Shown: positions 31,900 through 40,734 of the stretch, piece by piece
Position numbering within the stretch: the first letter of the stretch is position 1
How the letters are laid out: each line of letters opens with the position of its first letter
From: Bacteroidales bacterium
Lineage (GTDB): Bacteria; Bacteroidota; Bacteroidia; Bacteroidales; UBA932
DNA: 48,059 nt
NCBI GenBank assembly: GCA_017454905.1
Contig: JAFTCB010000059.1
Coordinates: 1-48,059, forward strand
Direction of reading: 5' to 3'
Position numbers and translations under genes: made by a program
Notes under the pieces: model-generated
Database searches by the model: none
What the model was told of the DNA's origin: nothing
What the model saw: only the letters and a program-made list of their open reading frames with translations

Positions 31900-33255
31900 A
31901 TGGCAAACAACAAAAGCGGATCCAAGCTCCTCAAGACCGAAGACTGGCTTTCGGTGTGGATCGGATTCATCATCATCGCGATCGGATGCGTGGCCGTCCT
32001 GACCGGCGCGTTCGATTTCTCTGCATTGACGTTCAAGACCTGGACCTGGGGTGAGGCCCTGACCGACGCCCAGATGGCGAAAGTCGTCCCCCTGGGCCAG
32101 CAGTTCGCTGCCGGCGCTTTCTGGGGCAAGCTCCTGCGCACGGTCCTCGTGCTCGGCATCCTCTTCACCGCCGGAGCGGTCTTGCTGGGCGAGAAAGCCA
32201 AGAAATACATTCCCGCCTTCCTGGGCGTCTTCGTGCTGGCGGTCGTCGTCCGCCTCATCAGTGCGGAATTCACCCTCAACCGCTACCTCGAATGGGCCTT
32301 CTGGGCGCTGATCGTGGGCATGCTGATCTCCAATACGGTGGGCACGCCCGCCTGGCTGCGTCCGGCCGTCAAGACCGAGTTCTACATCAAGACGGGCCTG
32401 GTGATCATGGGCTTCTCCGTGCTCTTCTCCAACATCGCGAAATTCGGCCTCTACGGCCTCGGTATCGCGTGGATCGTGACCCCGGTCGTGATCCTGTTCA
32501 TGTGGTGGTTCGGCACCCGCGTGCTCAAGATGGACAACAAGCCGCTGGTGATCACGATGGCTTCCGCGACGAGCGTCTGCGGTACTTCCGCCGCCATCGC
32601 GAGCGGCGCGGCTTCCGGCTGCAAGAAGGATGACCTGACGATGACGATTTCCATCTCCATCATCTTCACGGTCCTGATGATGGCCCTCGAGCCCGTGATC
32701 ATCCGCTGGACGGGCATGTCCCCGATCATGGGCGGCGCGCTCATCGGCGGCACGGTGGACAGCACCGGCGCCGTGGCCGTGGCCGGCAGCGTCCTGGGCG
32801 GCGAGGCCGAGCAGGCCGCCGTGCTCGTCAAGATGATCCAGAACATCCTCATCGGCTTCATCGCCTTTTTCGTGGCCCTCTTCTTCGCGACGAGCGTGAA
32901 CAAGAAGGACGGCCAGAAAGTCGGTGCCGGCGAGATCTGGACCCGTTTCCCGAAATTCATCATCGGTTTCTTCGTGGCCTCGCTGGTGGCTTCCTTCATC
33001 ATCCTGCCGCTCTGCGGTGCGGACCAGGTCAAGGCCATCAACGGCGTGCTCGACCAGTATAAGAACTGGGCCTTCGTGCTGGCCTTCGTCTGCATCGGAC
33101 TGGATACCAACTTCAAGGATCTCGTCAAGCAGATGCAGGGCGGCAAGCCGCTGTGGCTCTATCTCGTTGGCCAGACCTTCAACATCGTGCTGACCTTCTT
33201 CGCCGTGTGGCTGCTGCTCAGCGGCGTGCTCTTCCCGGTCCCGCACCTTTCCTAA
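31900..33255 (+). CDS. YeiH-family putative sulfate exporter
   Basis: 451 aa with roughly ten or eleven hydrophobic segments, so an inner-membrane transporter. It begins with a TM segment at about residues 19-39 (VWIGFIIIAIGCVAVLTG). The conserved core is present: LIVGMLISNTVGTPAWL, FYIKTGLVIMGFSVLF, the signature ATSVCGTSAAIASG, MGGALIGGTVDSTGAVAVAG, and FVCIGLDTNFKDLV near the end. Substrate naming in this family is tentative. It is followed after 3 bases by a small two-TM protein gene, probably in the same transcript. Confidence 0.9.
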   Translation: MANNKSGSKLLKTEDWLSVWIGFIIIAIGCVAVLTGAFDFSALTFKTWTWGEALTDAQMAKVVPLGQQFAAGAFWGKLLRTVLVLGILFTAGAVLLGEKAKKYIPAFLGVFVLAVVVRLISAEFTLNRYLEWAFWALIVGMLISNTVGTPAWLRPAVKTEFYIKTGLVIMGFSVLFSNIAKFGLYGLGIAWIVTPVVILFMWWFGTRVLKMDNKPLVITMASATSVCGTSAAIASGAASGCKKDDLTMTISISIIFTVLMMALEPVIIRWTGMSPIMGGALIGGTVDSTGAVAVAGSVLGGEAEQAAVLVKMIQNILIGFIAFFVALFFATSVNKKDGQKVGAGEIWTRFPKFIIGFFVASLVASFIILPLCGADQVKAINGVLDQYKNWAFVLAFVCIGLDTNFKDLVKQMQGGKPLWLYLVGQTFNIVLTFFAVWLLLSGVLFPVPHLS

Positions 33256-33258
33256 GCG

Positions 33259-33537
33259 ATGTCCAAGCGCAAGACGGCCGCCAGGATCGCCTTCCTCGTC
33301 GTGGGAGGCCTGATCCTGGCGGCTGCCGTCTATATCATGGTCCGGCGCATCGGGCTCAATCCGGAGCTGGACTTCGGCGCGGGCGCCTATTACTACGCCG
33401 ATATCCCCGACTACGAGCACCGGCTCAATTGGGATATCTACCAGGCGCAACTGCCCTTCTGGGTCTATGTCGTGCTCTTCCTCGCCTGGGGTGCGCTGAT
33501 GTACTGGATCTGGAAAAAACTGGACGGACGGAAATAG
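33259..33537 (+). CDS. Small two-TM membrane protein, unknown
   Basis: 92 aa. It has a basic N-terminus (MSKRKTAAR), a first TM (about residues 9-28, IAFLVVGGLILAAAVYIMV), an acidic and Tyr-rich loop of about 37 residues (GAGAYYYADIPDYEHRLNW), and a second TM (about 67-86) ending in KKLDGRK. I do not recognise the family. The start lies 3 bases after the transporter stop, and codon use matches its neighbours, so it is probably real and may be an accessory subunit. It is convergent with the LytTR gene (5-base gap). Confidence 0.7.
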   Translation: MSKRKTAARIAFLVVGGLILAAAVYIMVRRIGLNPELDFGAGAYYYADIPDYEHRLNWDIYQAQLPFWVYVVLFLAWGALMYWIWKKLDGRK

Positions 33538-33542
33538 CGGGG

Positions 33543-34274
33543 CTATCCCAGGCTGGATTTTGCGAGGTAGTCGCGGAAAGCCTGGCGGTAGAGGTCTCCG
33601 ACCGGGACCGCGGTGCCGTCGTCCAGGATGATGTCGTTCTTGCCGGCCTCGCGGATGCGTCCGAGGTTGATGATGAAGGATTTGTGCACGCGCATGAAGC
33701 GGGCGGCGGGCAGGCGCTCCTCCAGCTGCTTGAGGCGCATGAGGACAATCAGCGGCACAGGTGCTCCATCGTAAAAGACCTTGACGTATTCGCTCATCCC
33801 TTCGATGCAGCGGATGTCCCCCAGGCGCACCCGTACGGTCCGGCCGTCGGCACGGAAGAAGACGGCATCCTCCTGCAGGGAGACGGGCACGTCCCCGGCC
33901 AGCGCCGCCTGTGCGCCCAGCCGCTCGCGCAGCCGCTCCGCCGCCGCGACGAAATCCGCCAGGCTGAACGGCTTGAGCAGGTAGTCCACGGCATGGACCC
34001 GGAAGCCCTCGACGGCATATTCCGAATAAGCCGTGGTGAAGACCACCAGGGGAGGATGGGCGAGCGTGCGCACGAATTCCATCCCGGAGATGTCCGGCAT
34101 GTTGATATCCAGGAACATCGCATCCACGCCGGCAGCGTCCAGCACGCGGCGCGCTTCGAGAGCGCTGCGGCAGGCTGCCACCGGCTCCAGGAACGGCACC
34201 TTGGCGATGTACATCTCCAATTGCTTGAGCGCCAGGGGCTCGTCATCGACGGCGATTACGCGGATCTTGTTCAT
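33543..34274 (-). CDS. LytTR-family response regulator
   Basis: 243 aa. An N-terminal receiver domain (about residues 3-118) has acidic residues VDDE, the phospho-acceptor Asp56 in MFLDINMPDISG, Thr in VVFTTAYSEYAVEGF, and Lys in DYLLKPFSLADF. A C-terminal LytTR DNA-binding domain (about 140-240) has DIRCIEGMSEYVKVFY and ARFMRVHKSFIINLGRI. The start overlaps the kinase stop (ATGA), so the pair is translationally coupled. It probably controls the divergent beta-helix/VTC operon through the direct repeats at 35439-35468; this is inferred. Confidence 0.96.
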   Translation of the reverse strand: MNKIRVIAVDDEPLALKQLEMYIAKVPFLEPVAACRSALEARRVLDAAGVDAMFLDINMPDISGMEFVRTLAHPPLVVFTTAYSEYAVEGFRVHAVDYLLKPFSLADFVAAAERLRERLGAQAALAGDVPVSLQEDAVFFRADGRTVRVRLGDIRCIEGMSEYVKVFYDGAPVPLIVLMRLKQLEERLPAARFMRVHKSFIINLGRIREAGKNDIILDDGTAVPVGDLYRQAFRDYLAKSSLG

Positions 34275-35398
34275 ATCTGGGCGGTTTCGGGCTGGCAGGG
34301 CAGGACCAGCAGGAGCTCATAGGCCCCGGCGGGCTGGTCGATGTGCAGGGTGTAACGGTCGCCGTAGAGCAGGTCCAGCCGGCGGCGGACATTCTCCTGG
34401 CCGATTCCGGAGCCGCTTTTCTGCGGAGCAGGCGCCTGCCGGCTGTTGGCGCAGCGGAAGATGATCTTGCCGCCGTCCAGGGCCAGCGAGATGCGTACGA
34501 ACGACGGGGTTTCGTAACTGATTCCGTGCTTGAAGGCATTTTCGACGAAGGAGGCGAAGACCAACGGGGGCACCTGGGCCCCGCCGTCCCCCTCCGGGAG
34601 CTGCAGCGAGATGTCCACGCCCTCCGGGTAGCGGATGCGCATCAGGGACAGGTAATGCCGCAGGAAGTCGATTTCCTGGGCCAGCGGGAGGGTGGCGCTG
34701 CCCGAATCATACAGGATGTGCCGCATCATCTTGGACAGCTCCACGATGCTCTCTTTGGCCTTTTCCGGGTCCAGGTCCACGAGCGCGTGGATGTTGTTGA
34801 GCGTGTTCATGAAGAAATGCGGATTGATCTGGTAGCGCAGCGTGTCCAGTTTCTGCTGCAGGTTCTCGCGTTCGAGCTCCTGCACCCGCGCGGCATTGCG
34901 GGCCGCCTGGAACTGGTACTTGATCCCGAGGTTCGCGGCCATCAGCATCAGGCCCAGCACGCCTTTGAGCAGTTCCGGGCTCAGAGGCATCGGTCCGCCG
35001 CGCAGACCGGGCGGCATCATGTCCGGTCCTCCCGGCACCCCCCGCATTCCGGGTCCGCCCGGAGGCTCCGGCGGGCGCATGGTCGGATCGGGGCCGATCC
35101 GCGTCAGGACCAGGAAAACCGTGAAGGCGGCCAGCAGTCCCAGGGCCGCGAGAACATACGCCCAGGGCTTCTGCCGTCGGATCAGCAACGGTGCCGCCAG
35201 GTAGTTGTGGGCAAGGAACAGCACCAGGAACGGCAGCATCCGTCCCCAGATCTGCAGGACATCCCGGATGCCGGGCGAATCTCCGGGCCGGGAAACTCCC
35301 TGGAGCAGCACCAGCAGCGCCGCGACCAGGAACAGTCCCGTCCAGACCAGCAGGTAGATCAGATTCTCCCGCTTCTCATCCGTGAAAATTCTTTTCAT
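34271..35398 (-). CDS. LytS/YehU-type sensor histidine kinase
   Basis: 375 aa from the ATG at 35398; the frame is open further upstream, but that stretch lies in the divergent regulatory gap. Four TM segments (about residues 14-33, 53-72, 79-99, 142-158). Between TM3 and TM4 is an unusual loop (about 103-138) very rich in Pro, Gly and Met. A coiled stretch (RVQELERENLQQKLDTL) leads to the HisKA_7TM-type H-box with His194 in YQINPHFFMNTLNNIHAL, and the ATPase region has FVENAFKHGIS and GSGIGQENVRRRL. Partner is the adjacent LytTR regulator. Confidence 0.95.
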   Translation of the reverse strand: MKRIFTDEKRENLIYLLVWTGLFLVAALLVLLQGVSRPGDSPGIRDVLQIWGRMLPFLVLFLAHNYLAAPLLIRRQKPWAYVLAALGLLAAFTVFLVLTRIGPDPTMRPPEPPGGPGMRGVPGGPDMMPPGLRGGPMPLSPELLKGVLGLMLMAANLGIKYQFQAARNAARVQELERENLQQKLDTLRYQINPHFFMNTLNNIHALVDLDPEKAKESIVELSKMMRHILYDSGSATLPLAQEIDFLRHYLSLMRIRYPEGVDISLQLPEGDGGAQVPPLVFASFVENAFKHGISYETPSFVRISLALDGGKIIFRCANSRQAPAPQKSGSGIGQENVRRRLDLLYGDRYTLHIDQPAGAYELLLVLPCQPETAQI

Positions 35399-35438
35399 TT
35401 TCGCAAAAATAGACAATAATCGGCAAAGCTCCGTCCGG

Positions 35439-35468
35439 TTCGCTGAAGAAATCCGCCCTTTCGCTGAA
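35439..35468. promoter_or_regulatory. Candidate LytTR operator (two 9-bp direct repeats)
   Basis: TTCGCTGAA occurs at 35439-35447 and again at 35460-35468, the same orientation, with a 12-bp spacer. Two 9-bp direct repeats 12-13 bp apart is the usual LytTR operator layout. It lies in the 133-bp gap between the divergent kinase and beta-helix genes. A weak -7-like TAATTTCA sits 28 bases downstream (35497-35504), which would place the repeats just upstream of a promoter core. Confidence 0.55.
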
Positions 35469-35531
35469 TCTGGTGCAGGGCGGCAGAGTAATTGCGTAAT
35501 TTCAACATGTATTAAACTAAACCAACCATTT

Positions 35532-37946
35532 ATGAAAAGGGTATTTTCTTTTTTGATTCCGCTCCTGCTGCTCTCGGCAGGCGGCTGCATGAAAGACCTG
35601 ATTACGGTCTCTGATGCAGAAGAGGGTGTCAGCGTGTCCTGCGACGCCCTGAATTCCGATATTGCGGCGCTCCAGACCCTTCTCACGGAGATCGGCTCCG
35701 GTAGCACCGTGACTTCCTATAGCGATGGCAAGATCACCTTCTCCTCCGGGACCACAGTGACGGTCATTGCGCGTAGCGCGTACGACTTCTCCTATGTCAA
35801 TCCTGTCGTCGCGTCCTCCAACGGCTACTGGACCCTTGACGGGACGCAACTCTCCGCCAAGGTCGAGAGCGAAGCCATAAAACTCAAGGGAGAAGACGGT
35901 GCATGGTATGCCTATTACGGCTCTTCCTGGCACGAACTGGGGGAGATTACTTCCGGGTCCAGCGTGCCGGTCTTCCAGAGCGTCTCTTCCGGCAGCAGCG
36001 CGGTTAGTGTGACGCTTGCCGATGGGACGGTCATTTCTGCGGAGACCTATCAGGGCTCCGACAGCATCGAACTCAACAGTACCTCCGCTACGGTAGCCCA
36101 GAGCGGCGGCGCAGCCGTCGTGACCATCACATCCAGCGGCTCATGGACGGCCACGGTGAGCGACAGCTGGATCTCCCTCAATGCGACGTCCGGCTCCTCC
36201 GGCGACAAGATTACCGCCACCGTGACGGCCAATACCGGCAGCCGGCGCACCGGCACGGTGACCTTCACCTGCGGGTCCGTCTCGGCAACCCTGACGATCG
36301 TCCAGTCCGGCGAGACGGATGCCATCAGCTCCGCCGACACCGAGCAGTCCGAAGACAACGTAGGCACGGTCAGTTTCGACCGCACCATCAGCATCGTGTT
36401 CTCCTCCTCCGGCAGCGCCAGTGTCAGCGGAGACGATAACGGCGTCGTTACGGTCAGCGGCAACGACGTGACCGTCAAGAACGCCAACTACGACGAGAAA
36501 GTCATCTACGAGTTGTCCGGTACGACCTCCGACGGCTTCTTTAAGCTCTACAGTTCCAACAAGCAGGCGATCGTGCTCAACGGCGTCAGCATCACGAACA
36601 AGAACGGCGCCGCCATCAATGTCCAGAGCAACAAGCGGACATTTATTGTAGTCAATGGCTCCAACAAGCTCGCCGACGGCTCAAACTACTCCGACACGCC
36701 GTCTGACGAAGACGAGAAGGCGGCCCTGTTCAGTGAAGGACAACTCATCTTCAGCGGCAGCGGTTCGCTCACTGTGACCGCGACCGGCAAGGCCGGCATC
36801 ACTTCCGATGACTACGTCCGCTTCATGTCCAGTCCCACCGTGACGGTCAACAGCACTTCCGGGCACGGTGTGCGCGGTAAGGACGCCATTACCGTTTCCA
36901 ACGGCGCGATCGCCATCACCGCCAGCGCCGCGGGCAAGAAAGGCATGAGTTCCGACGGCACCGTGACGTTCGACGGCGGCAAGACCACCATCACCGTCTC
37001 CGGTGGCGTGGACACCTCCGACAGCAGCGACCTTTCCGGTTCGGCCGGCATCAAGTCCGACGGCATCTTCACGATGAATGCCGGCTCGCTGACCATCACC
37101 AACTCGGGACAGGGCGGCAAGGGCATCAGCGGTGATGTCCAGGGCTACTTCAACGGCGGGACCGTCTCCGTGACCGTCACCGGCAGCAACTACGGCTCTT
37201 CCGGCGGCAATCAGGGCGGCAATGTCCCGGGTCAGCGAGCCGGCAGCTCCTCCGACAACTCCGTGGCGGCCAAGGGTATCAAGTTCGACGGGGATCTGGT
37301 CTTTACCGGCGGCACCATCAGCGCTGCGGCTAAGAATCACGAGGCGATCGAGTCCAAGGGAACCATCACAATCTCAGGCGGTTATATTTTCGGAAATTCT
37401 TCCGACGACGCCATCAACGCGGCCAGTCACATGACCATCTCCGACGGCTACGTTTGTGCTTACTCGACCGGCAACGACGGTCTCGACTCCAACGGCAATA
37501 TGTACATCAAGGGAGGCGTCATCTATGCCGTATGCTCCGGCAGTCCGGAAGTGGCGCTCGACGCCAACACAGAAGGCGGCTACAAACTCTATGTCAGCGG
37601 CGGCGTCCTGTTCGCCCTCGGCGGACTGGAAAGCGGCGCCCAGCTCACGCAGAACTGCTATTCCTCCTCCTGGAGCAAGAATACCTGGTATGCGATGACG
37701 GTCGGCTCCGACACGTACGCTTTCAAGACGCCCGCCAGCGGCGGCAGCGGCCTGGTGGTCTCCGGCGCGTCGCAGCCTGCAGTCAAATCCGGCGTGAGTG
37801 TCTCCGGCGGTACGGCGCTCCCGGGCGACCTTGTCGTGATCGCCCCGACGGTCTCCGGCGGCAGCACTGTCTCCCTGTCCAGCTACTCCGGCGGCAGCGG
37901 GATGGGCGGTGGCAATCAGGGCGGCGGCCCCGGCAGAGGTTGGTAA
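35532..37946 (+). CDS. Cthe_2159-type beta-helix lipoprotein with DUF4988 and BACON domains
   Basis: 804 aa, surface or periplasmic lipoprotein (lipobox LSAGGC, Cys19). Residues about 30-175 look like the DUF4988-type N-terminal module (DALNSDIAALQTLL coiled start, GEDGAWYAYYGSSW). Residues about 178-258 are a BACON-like Ig domain (SSGSWTATVSDSWISL, GSRRTGTVTFTCG). From about 285 to 690 are serial short strands of the Cthe_2159-type carbohydrate-binding beta-helix (NGVSITNKNGAAINVQSNK, GDDAIN-like SSDDAINAASHM, GNDGLDSNGNMYIKGG). The C-terminal tail is Gly-rich (GGGNQGGGPGRGW). It is first in the run before the VTC and DUF4956 genes. Confidence 0.85.
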   Translation: MKRVFSFLIPLLLLSAGGCMKDLITVSDAEEGVSVSCDALNSDIAALQTLLTEIGSGSTVTSYSDGKITFSSGTTVTVIARSAYDFSYVNPVVASSNGYWTLDGTQLSAKVESEAIKLKGEDGAWYAYYGSSWHELGEITSGSSVPVFQSVSSGSSAVSVTLADGTVISAETYQGSDSIELNSTSATVAQSGGAAVVTITSSGSWTATVSDSWISLNATSGSSGDKITATVTANTGSRRTGTVTFTCGSVSATLTIVQSGETDAISSADTEQSEDNVGTVSFDRTISIVFSSSGSASVSGDDNGVVTVSGNDVTVKNANYDEKVIYELSGTTSDGFFKLYSSNKQAIVLNGVSITNKNGAAINVQSNKRTFIVVNGSNKLADGSNYSDTPSDEDEKAALFSEGQLIFSGSGSLTVTATGKAGITSDDYVRFMSSPTVTVNSTSGHGVRGKDAITVSNGAIAITASAAGKKGMSSDGTVTFDGGKTTITVSGGVDTSDSSDLSGSAGIKSDGIFTMNAGSLTITNSGQGGKGISGDVQGYFNGGTVSVTVTGSNYGSSGGNQGGNVPGQRAGSSSDNSVAAKGIKFDGDLVFTGGTISAAAKNHEAIESKGTITISGGYIFGNSSDDAINAASHMTISDGYVCAYSTGNDGLDSNGNMYIKGGVIYAVCSGSPEVALDANTEGGYKLYVSGGVLFALGGLESGAQLTQNCYSSSWSKNTWYAMTVGSDTYAFKTPASGGSGLVVSGASQPAVKSGVSVSGGTALPGDLVVIAPTVSGGSTVSLSSYSGGSGMGGGNQGGGPGRGW

Positions 37947-37970
37947 AAACAGAATAAAAGAATGCACGAT

Positions 37971-38384
37971 ATGATGAAAAAGACGATTCTTCTCCTCCTG
38001 GCCGCCGCGCTGCTGTGGCCCTGCGGAGCCGCTGCGCAGACGGCGCAGAAGATCAACAAGAAGAACCTGGTCATCAAAGAATGGAACACCGATGCCAACT
38101 CCAAGGCACGCATCCTGGACCACGTGACCACCTACAACGCGGACGGCAAGAAGATCGAAGAGATCGAATACAGCCAGAGCGGCCAGAAATGGCGCAAACG
38201 CTTCGAATACGACGCCGCCGGGCGCGTGAGCCTGGAATCCGTGTACGACGAACACAACAGGCTCGACAACTACAAGAAGTTCGAATACAACGAGTTCGGA
38301 CGCAAGAAGACCCAATACTCCTACACACCCAAGGGCAAGCTCAAAACCATCAAGGTCTATGAATATCTCGCAGAAGATGATTGA
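37971..38384 (+). CDS. Small secreted YD/RHS-like repeat protein
   Basis: 137 aa from the ATG at 37971 (ATGs at 37962 and 37974 are also possible), with a signal peptide (MKKTILLLLAAALLWPCGAAAQ). The mature part, about 115 residues, consists of about four beta-hairpin repeats of roughly 20 residues: TTYNADGKKIEEIEY, FEYDAAGRVSLESVY, FEYNEFGRKKTQYSY and TPKGKLKTIKVYEY, similar to YD/RHS or YwqK-like repeats. It is rich in Lys and Arg. It lies in the VTC operon and overlaps the VTC gene by 8 bases. I do not recognise a defined family; binding to a polyanion is a guess. Confidence 0.75.
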   Translation: MMKKTILLLLAAALLWPCGAAAQTAQKINKKNLVIKEWNTDANSKARILDHVTTYNADGKKIEEIEYSQSGQKWRKRFEYDAAGRVSLESVYDEHNRLDNYKKFEYNEFGRKKTQYSYTPKGKLKTIKVYEYLAEDD

Positions 38385-39153
38385 GCAGACGCTGGAACTC
38401 CTCTCCCCGATCCACCTCGGGGAGATGGATTCCATCCAGCTCATGAACCGGATCGACACCAAGTACCTGACCACGGAGCAGGTCTTGTCGGAGATCCTGC
38501 GGGATGCTGCCGGCCGTGGCTACCGGGCTCTCGAGACGGAGGGGACGAAGATTTCTTCCTACGATTCCCTCTACTACGACACCCCGGAGCTGCAGATGTT
38601 CCTCGACCACCACAACCGGCGCCTGGTGCGCCAGAAAGTCCGTACGCGGACCTATGTGGGCAGCGGCCAGACCTTCCTGGAGATCAAGCGCAAGAACAAC
38701 CACGGCCGGACGAAGAAGAAACGGACCGAGATCGATCCGGCCGCTTTCCGGGACTTCCGCACGGACCCGTCCGCCCCGGCCCTGCTGGAGAAATACTCGG
38801 TCATTCCGGCCGGGCGCCTGTCGCCCGCGCTGGAGACCGTCTTCCGCAGGATCACCCTGGTCAATGCCGCCCGAACCGAGCGCCTGACCATCGACACGGC
38901 GCTGTGCTTCCGCAACCACCGCACCGGGCGGGAGGTCTCCCTGCAGGACGCGGTGGTCATCGAACTCAAGCAGGACGGCCGCGCACAGAGCGAAATGAAG
39001 GAAATCCTGCTGGAGCACCGGGTCAAGCCGGTCCGCGTGAGCAAATACTGCATCGGGATCACCCTCACGGACACCTCCGTCAAGAGCAACCGCTTTAAGC
39101 AGAAAGTCCGCCTGATCGAAAAAACCATTGACAAAAAACTCATAACGACATGA
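38377..39153 (+). CDS. VTC-domain polyphosphate-polymerase-like protein
   Basis: 258 aa from the ATG at 38377, which overlaps the upstream stop; an ATG at 38359 is also open. The fold is the triphosphate-tunnel (TTM/VTC) type, with tunnel residues in RIDTKYL (Lys29), RQKVRTRTY (Arg85, Lys87, Arg89, Arg91), FLEIKRKN (Glu102, Lys104, Arg105, Lys106), RLTIDTALCF, VVIELKQDG and VSKYCIGI. Yeast Vtc4 uses such a tunnel to make polyphosphate from ATP at the membrane. The next gene, a DUF4956 membrane protein, overlaps by ATGA and is a plausible anchor or channel. Product chemistry is not proven by sequence. Confidence 0.88.
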   Translation: MIEQTLELLSPIHLGEMDSIQLMNRIDTKYLTTEQVLSEILRDAAGRGYRALETEGTKISSYDSLYYDTPELQMFLDHHNRRLVRQKVRTRTYVGSGQTFLEIKRKNNHGRTKKKRTEIDPAAFRDFRTDPSAPALLEKYSVIPAGRLSPALETVFRRITLVNAARTERLTIDTALCFRNHRTGREVSLQDAVVIELKQDGRAQSEMKEILLEHRVKPVRVSKYCIGITLTDTSVKSNRFKQKVRLIEKTIDKKLITT

Positions 39154-39917
39154 TACAGATTGACAACCTGGGCGATTACCAGATCGCCGACGAAGAAGTC
39201 TTCGACGTCCAGGCCATCACCGACGCGATGATGACCACGGGACAGAGCCTTACGGAACTGGGTATCCGCTTCCTGCTCAACCTCCTGGTGTGCTGGATCC
39301 TCGTCCGGTTCTTCTATTATCCGAAAAGCCGCCGGCGCGACTACTTTTTCACTTTCATGGTATTCTCCTCTGCCATGGTCCTGCTGCTCTACATGATGGG
39401 CAACGCCGAAGTGGGGGTGGGCCTGACCCTGGGCCTGTTCGCCATCTTCGGGGTGATCCGCTACCGGACGGAGACCGTCCCGATCCGCGAGATGACCTAT
39501 CTCTTCGTCATCATCGCCCTGGCGGCGCTCAACGGCCTGTCTCCCATCTACCGGCTGGCCGGGGCGGTCACGGACCATCCGCACTATGTCCTTTCCGGCG
39601 GAGCCGTGGGCGTCACGGTGCTGGCCAACCTGCTCGTCGTGTGCCTGATCGGCGTGCTGGAGAGCCGCCGCTTCCTCGCCCGGACTTCTACCAAGCTCGT
39701 CCTCTACGACCGGATCGAGCTGATCGTCCCCGAGCGGCGGGAAGAGCTTATTGCAGACCTGAAGCAGCGCCTGGGCCTGCAGATTGACAGCGTGGAGATT
39801 GGCCACGTGGACTTCCTCAAGGACGCAGCCTTCATCAAAGTCAGTTATACGCTGGACGGGAGCCAGGTTGCTCCCACCATCGACCAGCTCACCAAAGCCA
39901 AAGATTTCGTCGGATAA
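39150..39917 (+). CDS. DUF4956 five-TM membrane protein
   Basis: 255 aa. An N-terminal soluble segment of about 37 residues is followed by five hydrophobic segments (about 38-56, 65-83, 88-103, 115-130, 150-169) and a soluble C-terminal domain from about 178 (VLYDRIELIVPERREEL, VSYTLDGSQVAPTID). The family-type motif FAIFGVIRYRTE lies at residues 97-108 at the end of TM3. The start overlaps the VTC stop (ATGA), so the two are made together. Pairing suggests this protein tethers the VTC enzyme or passes its product through the inner membrane; this is inference. Confidence 0.88.
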   Translation: MIQIDNLGDYQIADEEVFDVQAITDAMMTTGQSLTELGIRFLLNLLVCWILVRFFYYPKSRRRDYFFTFMVFSSAMVLLLYMMGNAEVGVGLTLGLFAIFGVIRYRTETVPIREMTYLFVIIALAALNGLSPIYRLAGAVTDHPHYVLSGGAVGVTVLANLLVVCLIGVLESRRFLARTSTKLVLYDRIELIVPERREELIADLKQRLGLQIDSVEIGHVDFLKDAAFIKVSYTLDGSQVAPTIDQLTKAKDFVG

Positions 39918-39933
39918 TTAATACCGCAACATC

Positions 39934-40734
39934 ATGAAACCCAAACCTATATTTCTTCTGTTGTCCCTGCTTCTGCTCCCGGTCTCCGGCCGGGCGCAGG
40001 GCACGGTGAATGCCCTGGAGAACGATTTCGCCACGCGCACCTCGCTCTCCGTCGACAAGAAACTCGCCAAGGGCCTGCATCTCTCGGCAGAATATCAGCT
40101 CCGTACAGAGAATGCCCTGTCCAAGATCGACCGCCACCAGGTCTCGCTGGGCCTGGACTACAAGTTCAACAATTGGCTCAAGGGCGGCCTGTCCTATACT
40201 TTCATCGACCACAACGGGACCAATTCCGGCTGGGAGCCCCGCCACCGGGTCTCCGGCTCGCTGACCTTCGGCTACCGGATCGGCGACTGGCGCTTCTCCC
40301 TGCGGGAAATGCTGCAGCTGACCCACCAGTCCGGAGATTTCAATCCCTATCAGGAAGTGCCGAACCTGCTGACACTCAAATCCCGTTTCAAGATTCAGTA
40401 CAAGGGATTTTCCGCCGTGGAACCCTATGCCTTCTTCGAGTTGAAGAACGTGTTTAACGCCCCCGCCTGCTCAGCCACGTACAACAGTTCGACGGCAACC
40501 TACAGCGACTACTCTTTCCTTGGCTATGGCGACACCTACATCAACCGCTGGCGCGGCGGCCTGGGTCTGGAGTGGAAGCTCAACAAACACAACGCCCTGG
40601 AGTTCTACGGTCTGTTCGACTACCTTTACGATAAGGACATCGACACCAATAAAGCTGGCACCAAGCTCAAGAGCCTGACCTGGGACCAGACTTTCCGCAC
40701 GACCGTCGGCGTGGGATACAAATTCAGTTTCTGA
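39934..40734 (+). CDS. DUF2490-type outer-membrane beta-barrel protein
   Basis: 266 aa with a signal peptide (MKPKPIFLLLSLLLLPVSGRAQ). The rest alternates amphipathic strands such as LSVDKKLAKGLHLSAEYQL, HQVSLGLDYKFNNWLKGGL and WRGGLGLEWKLNKHNALEF, ending in the strand TTVGVGYKFSF with a C-terminal Phe, the usual mark of an outer-membrane barrel. It begins 16 bases after the DUF4956 gene and is the last gene of the run. It is convergent with dnaE (4-base gap). An outer-membrane exit or anchor for the system is possible but unproven. Confidence 0.85.
   Translation: MKPKPIFLLLSLLLLPVSGRAQGTVNALENDFATRTSLSVDKKLAKGLHLSAEYQLRTENALSKIDRHQVSLGLDYKFNNWLKGGLSYTFIDHNGTNSGWEPRHRVSGSLTFGYRIGDWRFSLREMLQLTHQSGDFNPYQEVPNLLTLKSRFKIQYKGFSAVEPYAFFELKNVFNAPACSATYNSSTATYSDYSFLGYGDTYINRWRGGLGLEWKLNKHNALEFYGLFDYLYDKDIDTNKAGTKLKSLTWDQTFRTTVGVGYKFSF

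Follow-up and report, generated by a model that had tools for sequence, protein, structure and literature searches.

A VTC-DUF4956 locus with envelope genes and a divergent LytTR pair in a Bacteroidales genome, a candidate system for polyphosphate synthesis and export

In bacteria, polyphosphate is generally attributed to enzymes of the PPK type. Here we describe a locus built around a VTC-domain protein, a probable polyphosphate polymerase, in a Bacteroidales bacterium (GenBank assembly GCA_017454905.1, a 2.42 Mb genome that is 81.7% complete). The stretch analyzed, called the window below, is the 48,059-nucleotide contig JAFTCB010000059.1, contig 39 of this genome. A Pfam scan of positions 33543-40734 identified a kinase/LytTR regulator pair divergent from five overlapping or closely spaced plus-strand genes. 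In order, these encode a protein with BACON and Cthe_2159 beta-helix domains, a small basic secreted YD protein, a VTC protein, a DUF4956 protein and a DUF2490 protein. Gaps of 15 and 16 bp separate the first and the last two genes, and the junctions in between are overlaps of 26 and 4 bp. An earlier note, made from the DNA letters alone, had described the same arrangement under the same gene names and had read it as a regulated system for a surface polyanion. The features of the locus are as follows.

33543..34274, minus strand: LytTR response regulator (Pfam Response_reg 1.1e-18, LytTR 6.3e-16)
34271..35398, minus strand: sensor histidine kinase, PF06580 (His_kinase 1.5e-24; open reading frame 34271-35707, likely ATG start at 35398)
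35439..35468, no strand assigned: tandem direct repeat TTCGCTGAA-N12-TTCGCTGAA, probable LytTR operator (pattern uniqueness and recurrence)
35532..37946, plus strand: secreted BACON and Cthe_2159 right-handed beta-helix protein, possible lipoprotein (Cthe_2159 4.4e-40, BACON 2e-10)
37962..38384, plus strand: small basic secreted YD/RHS-repeat protein (RHS_repeat 2.3e-05)
38359..39153, plus strand: VTC-domain polymerase, probable polyphosphate polymerase (PF09359 2.8e-35)
39150..39917, plus strand: DUF4956 predicted inner-membrane partner with five transmembrane helices and a C-terminal domain (PF16316 3e-47)
39934..40734, plus strand: DUF2490 outer-membrane beta-barrel (Pfam DUF2490 1.6e-19)

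Conservation of the VTC-DUF4956 pair

VTC and DUF4956 are closely associated across Bacteroidota. Among 395 genomes of this phylum, VTC was detected in 57 and DUF2490 in 140; DUF4956 gave matches in 88, of which 85 exceed the cut-off, and Cthe_2159 in 16, of which 13 do so. DUF4956 was present in all 57 VTC genomes compared with 88 of the 395 overall, and Fisher's test of this co-occurrence, computed ignoring relatedness, gave p 1.6e-46. Measured between domain matches, a same-strand DUF4956 lies within 1 kb of VTC in 61 of 65 VTC places and within 3 kb in 64. The same three of 14 control genomes were positive for both families, and 16 plasmid records were common to the 17 that match DUF4956 and the 17 that match VTC, nine of them from Aminobacter. 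Cthe_2159 is less tightly linked: eight of the 13 genomes over the cut-off have VTC, and the two lie within 2 kb of each other in four. A Pseudoalteromonas plasmid has a DUF4956 match and no VTC match, with a lamin-tail protein and a porin alongside, and in Aminobacter (L316, 4956-7268; surveyed loci are cited by L numbers) a DUF4956-polyphosphate polymerase pair is followed by a gene for a phytase-like protein.

Within the order Bacteroidales, VTC was found in 144 of 295 genomes. We examined 121 loci: the window, plus 120 VTC places that came from 116 of the 143 remaining genomes with VTC. Neighbors were sought within 6 kb using profiles grown from the window proteins. Since many contigs end inside the fetched stretch, all neighbor counts are lower bounds. 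DUF4956 was detected at no fewer than 117 of these loci. DUF2490 followed with at least 62 (as the second gene after VTC in 59), the YD protein with at least 46 (immediately 5' of VTC in 45), a small acidic protein that weakly matches SdrD_B with at least 40, CotH with at least 37, the regulator with at least 20, Cthe_2159 with at least 14 and the kinase with at least 11. The profile used for CotH started from a single sequence, so that the CotH counts here and below are lower bounds on that account as well. The four loci lacking DUF4956 are L134, a locus cut by the contig end, and L075, L079 and L139; in L072 the gene is broken. In L079, DUF2490 directly follows VTC, without DUF4956.

A second set consisted of the 80 named loci that best match the DUF4956 subfamily of the window, a choice that biases the set to this subfamily; removal of six with an identical VTC end left 74. 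VTC is present in 72 of these, and the remaining two (L234 and L245) begin at DUF4956. DUF2490 occurs in 66, the YD protein in 60, Cthe_2159 in 36, the regulator in 19, the kinase in 16 and CotH in two. The exact order of the window, with regulator and kinase divergent from Cthe_2159-YD-VTC-DUF4956-DUF2490, recurs in L182, L192, L198, L203, L204 and L259. Because the same order recurs in many other loci, the gene set is more than a chance assembly. In Bacteroides cellulosilyticus DSM 14838, a laboratory gut commensal, VTC, DUF4956, DUF2490, Cthe_2159, the kinase and the regulator stand in one row. Most of the closest relatives of the window's DUF4956 gene are found in Bacteroidales assemblies from the ruminant gut.

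These surveys are in keeping with the co-conservation that the earlier note expected of its five families, with a distinction among them: VTC and DUF4956 form a firm core, and the shell around it, made up of DUF2490, the YD protein, Cthe_2159 and the LytTR pair, is looser. An apparent VTC-DUF4956 gene fusion of 542 aa in Bacteroides cellulosilyticus (L231, 7023-8651) was rejected as a gap artefact, as its reading frame crosses a run of N and has X in the translation. In L273 (7800-10136), a 778-aa open reading frame has a C-terminal VTC domain as its only Pfam match, with none in the first 500 residues, and a CotH gene stands after DUF4956.

The VTC enzyme and its membrane partner

The 264-aa VTC protein of the window scores 122.4 bits against PF09359, which has a cut-off of 23. 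When 17 VTC proteins are combined in a profile, positions 28-237 of its 257 match yeast Vtc4 structures at 2.8e-10. In the profile alignment, twelve tunnel residues pair as follows (window/Vtc4): R31/R196, K35/K200, R95/R264, R97/R266, E108/E279, K110/K281, R164/R361, R175/R373, E202/E426, K204/K428, S228/S457 and K229/K458. The full set of twelve is present in 197 of 199 alignment rows, compared with a median modal fraction of 0.41 in other columns, and 192 of 193 distinct sequences keep them all, the exception being L173 with K in place of R31. The N-terminal strand of the bacterial proteins carries R-x3-K, like Vtc4. According to passages of PMC9911596, R264, R266 and E426 are residues replaced to impair yeast VTC.

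Because these tunnel residues are nearly invariant, a polyphosphate-type polymerase is the best reading of the VTC protein, and the Arg/Lys/Glu tunnel and polyanion synthesis proposed in the earlier note both stand, the latter as a prediction. Polyphosphate itself is a likely product. No match to PPK1, PPK2 or PPX/GppA was found in the source genome, of which an estimated 18% is missing. Since neither PPK1 nor PPK2 gave a match, VTC is the only polyphosphate polymerase candidate found in this genome, which is suggestive only.

The DUF4956 protein matches PF16316 with 160.9 bits. Its AlphaFold2 model (pLDDT 82, pTM 0.69) has five transmembrane helices, as the earlier note had proposed, and a C-terminal beta-alpha-beta-beta tail. 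Averaged over 47 sequences, loops 1-2 and 3-4 are net positive, while the N-terminus and loops 2-3 and 4-5 are net negative. From these loop charges, the N-terminus is predicted to be outside and the tail inside, on the side where VTC would sit. R104-Y105-R106-T107 is invariant in the 47 sequences and is placed at the predicted inner end of helix 3. We consider it very probable that DUF4956 is a working partner of VTC; that it forms a conduit across the inner membrane is an even bet. DUF4956 genes are also found without VTC in L287 (8009-10926) and L284 (8263-11371), beside a HlyD-type protein or a purple-acid-phosphatase-like metallophosphatase. A possible iron link was not used: the relevant passage of PMC10434189 gives B. 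thetaiotaomicron DUF4956 and DUF2490 (BT3498-99) as 7.6-fold down under iron depletion, which was not significant (P 0.175).

Members of the MgtC/SapB family (PF02308) have five transmembrane helices and an ACT-like C-terminal domain. We distinguished three motif types of DUF4956, type 1 (RYRT, including the window), type 2 (VRFRA) and type 3 (IIRFRT). The subfamilies with the GLVGAMSIIRFRT / GLVGALSIVRFRA motifs (L161-L176 and others; alignment A5) are detectable relatives of MgtC. Types 2/3 match MgtC in hhalign with an E-value of 3.1e-6 over 109 columns, compared with 0.08 for a reversed control and 0.14 or worse for four other membrane families, these control families having three sequences each. 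Pfam MgtC was matched at E<=1 by 12 of 14 single members of types 2/3, at best with 8.9e-5; the member shown in full reaches 18.3 bits, under the curated cut-off of 31.4. Type 1 connects to types 2/3 at 9.1e-9. A direct MgtC match for the window's own subfamily was rejected (alignment A1 against MgtC, E 0.6; none in the window Pfam scan), and 117 mixed DUF4956 sequences gave E 0.018. The window subfamily has GLFAIFGVIRYRT in place of the MgtC motif GIGFLGAG. We therefore regard types 2 and 3, by profile similarity, as related to MgtC, with type 1 linked to it through them. The literature passages on DUF4956 that were consulted do not name MgtC.

Regulation and the candidate operator

The proposal that one regulator governs the set agrees with the recurrence of the kinase/regulator pair. 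In L182, L198, L203, L204 and L259, the divergent regulators are 55-65% and the divergent kinases 45-52% identical to those of the window, and pairs located downstream in L110 and L231 show 40-41% identity for kinases and 48% for regulators. These identities point to a single regulator subfamily that recurs with the operon.

LytTR regulators elsewhere bind tandem 9-bp direct repeats about 21 bp apart, which corresponds to about two helical turns. The sequence of the divergent promoter region in the window contains a repeat of this type, TTCGCTGAA-N12-TTCGCTGAA. Expressed as TTCGYTSAA-N11-13-TTCGYTSAA, this site is the sole match in the 2.42 Mb source genome, and the backwards pattern has none. 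A scan of 201 loci (2.96 Mb) gave 11 sites with a score of 17 or 18 of 18, compared with none in three shuffles. Perfect matches other than that of the window lie upstream of the operon in L259, L183, L201, L188 and L192. Three of the 11 near-perfect sites are inside genes (L063, L212 and L215) and one (L187) is in an open reading frame cut by the contig end. Since the left neighbor in L183 and L201 is not the kinase, the repeat is a feature of the operon rather than of the kinase gene alone.

Ten further divergent kinase regions were compared, excluding L175, which is not operon-linked. L259, L188 and L192 repeat the window word or a close variant, in L215, L182, L191 and L204 the repeated word is a different one or is A-rich, and L198, L199 and L203 have no repeat of at least 8 of 9. 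An exact 9-bp repeat at a period of 20-22 was found in 40 of 3000 random 260-bp windows. A single repeat is thus weak by itself, and what carries the operator assignment is that the site is unique in the genome and recurs upstream of related operons. We consider the repeat a probable LytTR operator, and control of the operon through it is quite likely.

Promoter and terminator scans of the locus were near chance level. Directly downstream of the DUF2490 end, dnaE is convergent with the five-gene set. Just past the regulator gene, a YeiH-type putative sulfate exporter and a 92-aa small protein are encoded in tandem (31900-33537).

Envelope proteins and possible functions of the locus

The AlphaFold2 model of the DUF2490 protein (pLDDT 93.5) is an all-beta barrel, as the earlier note had predicted, for which DSSP lists 11 strands. 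KdgM-type porins are 12-stranded monomeric barrels with basic tracks in the lumen. The model resembles the acidic-oligosaccharide porins KdgM, NanC and VhGalP in barrel shape, tied with autotransporter barrels; no KdgM sequence match was present among the window Pfam matches at E<=0.1. The YD protein (pI 9.1; homologue alignment A8) is secreted but not a lipoprotein, as a crude lipobox-like pattern is found in only five of 109 homologues. The signal of the Cthe_2159 protein, read from the sequence, ends in SAGGC, and the same crude pattern matches 14 of 48 homologues. Therefore, of the two lipoproteins in the earlier proposal, the Cthe_2159 protein is the only one that may be such. The idea that lipoproteins hold the polymer at the surface is not supported: Cthe_2159 proteins are acidic, with a median isoelectric point (pI) of 4.56, as are the lipoprotein-like proteins of CotH-type loci (4.69), and Cthe_2159 accompanies only 14 of the 121 Bacteroidales VTC loci while CotH is found in 37 others.

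We propose, with a probability of roughly 50%, that this locus does in a bacterium what the VTC machine does in yeast. The cytoplasmic VTC protein would extend polyphosphate from ATP through its basic tunnel, as its near-invariant residues suggest, and would pass the chain to DUF4956, whose five helices, oriented N-out/C-in, would give it passage through the inner membrane. Once the chain is in the periplasm, the basic YD protein might bind it, and the DUF2490 barrel might pass it, or short chains, through the outer membrane, although this last role is doubtful. The Cthe_2159 protein would be an exchangeable surface client, and the LytTR pair would switch the operon, probably through the 9-bp direct repeats with a period of 21 bp between the divergent genes. 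Synthesis of polyphosphate by VTC and its transfer across the inner membrane by DUF4956 is the most likely of the explanations considered; we infer the product, the translocation and the outer-membrane exit alike.

The likeness to yeast lies in a polymer that would be made on the inner side of the cell membrane and sent outwards, as yeast fills its vacuole. Passages of PMC9911596 and PMC12526157 describe polyphosphate synthesis by yeast VTC as coupled to translocation. The eukaryotic complex (Vtc1/Vtc3/Vtc4) shares with the window the VTC tunnel domain, the same catalytic residues and a paired membrane part. It differs in that the membrane partner in the window is DUF4956 and that the genes are linked to envelope genes and a LytTR pair. 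The nine window proteins scanned have neither an SPX match (E<=0.1) nor a membrane domain of the Vtc1 type, and the VTC protein has no other domain over the cut-off.

Several observations weigh against such a machine. VTC is missing from a same-genus genome and from two same-family genomes listed in the order survey, making this a patchy set. L075, L079 and L139 have VTC with no DUF4956 in the fetched stretch, for which a six-frame search gave no explanation, and a plasmid of Enterococcus faecalis matches VTC weakly and DUF4956 not at all. Conversely, VTC is absent from 31 of the 88 genomes with DUF4956 (three of these fall below the cut-off), so this family is also used apart from VTC. The DUF4956 model has no PDB match at E<=0.001 and by itself shows no pore. 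For an outer-membrane exit, the difficulties are that the barrel and the YD protein were found in 62 and 46 of the 121 Bacteroidales loci (lower bounds), that the tie with autotransporter barrels concerns shape only, and that Foldseek ranks mitochondrial VDAC first by E-value, with TM-scores near 0.2. Basic charge of the barrel was rejected as a sign of polyanion exit, since the median pI is 9.27 in 18 unlinked open reading frames matching the DUF2490 profile (L298 and L310 left out) and 9.25 in 131 VTC-linked ones (p 0.94). The exit assigned to the barrel in the earlier note is thus weak.

The VTC-free DUF4956 genomes would also fit a different role, in which VTC makes polyphosphate while DUF4956 is an anchor and regulator, with an MgtC-like membrane part and an ACT-like tail, and not a channel. 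The polymer would then stay internal, and the envelope genes would be co-regulated but serve a separate surface function. The MgtC relation of other DUF4956 subfamilies and several ACT domains among the weak Foldseek hits for the model (E about 1) are consistent with this. However, secreted and outer-membrane genes adjoin or overlap the VTC-DUF4956 pair in many loci, the source genome at its 81.7% completeness has no PPX/GppA match to recycle an internal store, and yeast synthesis is coupled to translocation (PMC9911596, in the passages cited); we regard an internal polymer as unlikely, though the least so of the alternatives. Another substrate for the tunnel enzyme, as in a triphosphatase or a maker of some other nucleotide-derived polymer, appears less probable still. 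Two additional basic residues, R91 (198 of 199 rows) and K93 (199 of 199), are near-invariant in bacterial VTC where Vtc4 has Ala260 and Ala262, and the window protein searched against the PDB as a single sequence found no match. Yet the twelve aligned Vtc4 tunnel residues are kept, R264, R266 and E426 among them, the profile match to Vtc4 covers most of its length, and the R-x3-K strand is shared.

Of similarly low probability is that a surface protein or polysaccharide is modified with an exported polymer as the phosphate donor or substrate, used by the CotH kinase in CotH-type loci, with the Cthe_2159/YD pair as acceptor or binder in the window. CotH is found within 6 kb in 37 and Cthe_2159 in 14 of the 121 Bacteroidales VTC loci, none with both; in an enlarged set of 195 loci, 39 have CotH and 50 have Cthe_2159, and here too no VTC has both of them within 6 kb (p 2.6e-6, uncorrected for relatedness). 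Two of three CotH proteins scanned carry a Por secretion tail, which places the action of these two outside the cytoplasm. A CotH-PPP-DUF4956 cluster is present in Deinococcus, and a CotH-PPP-DUF4956-DUF4832 cluster beside Pel genes in Gram-positives has already been published (PMC7112168). Those Pel accessory genes, CotH-PPP-DUF4956(-DUF4832), share the VTC and DUF4956 core with the window, which differs in having Cthe_2159, the YD protein, the DUF2490 barrel and the LytTR pair and no CotH. On the other hand, no CotH was found in the source genome (81.7% complete), and relatedness inflates the zero of 195. L276 (5211-10931), a locus from outside the order, carries CotH, VTC, DUF4956 and Cthe_2159 together, so the two are not strict alternatives.

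A broader and improbable extension of the yeast-like machine is that VTC and DUF4956 form a bacterial polyphosphate synthase-translocase with an MgtC-related conduit. Polyphosphate would then be an extracytoplasmic currency of phosphate or energy for exchangeable clients, such as CotH kinases and Cthe_2159 proteins, where ATP is absent. If true, this would also suggest that the role of the MgtC superfamily is related to polyanions or phosphate. The literature searched on these families, seen in part, turned up no functional study of a bacterial VTC-DUF4956 pair. The tandem repeat as a probable operator, the MgtC relation of other DUF4956 subfamilies and the barrel shape match of DUF2490 are new here, and the CotH link, the MgtC link and the operator go beyond what could be seen from the window alone. 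DUF4956 would gain a function, a possible superfamily in MgtC and a simple expression switch. With VTC always accompanied by one membrane family in the 395 genomes, no PPK found and envelope genes adjoining, exported polyphosphate in gut bacteria would become directly testable.

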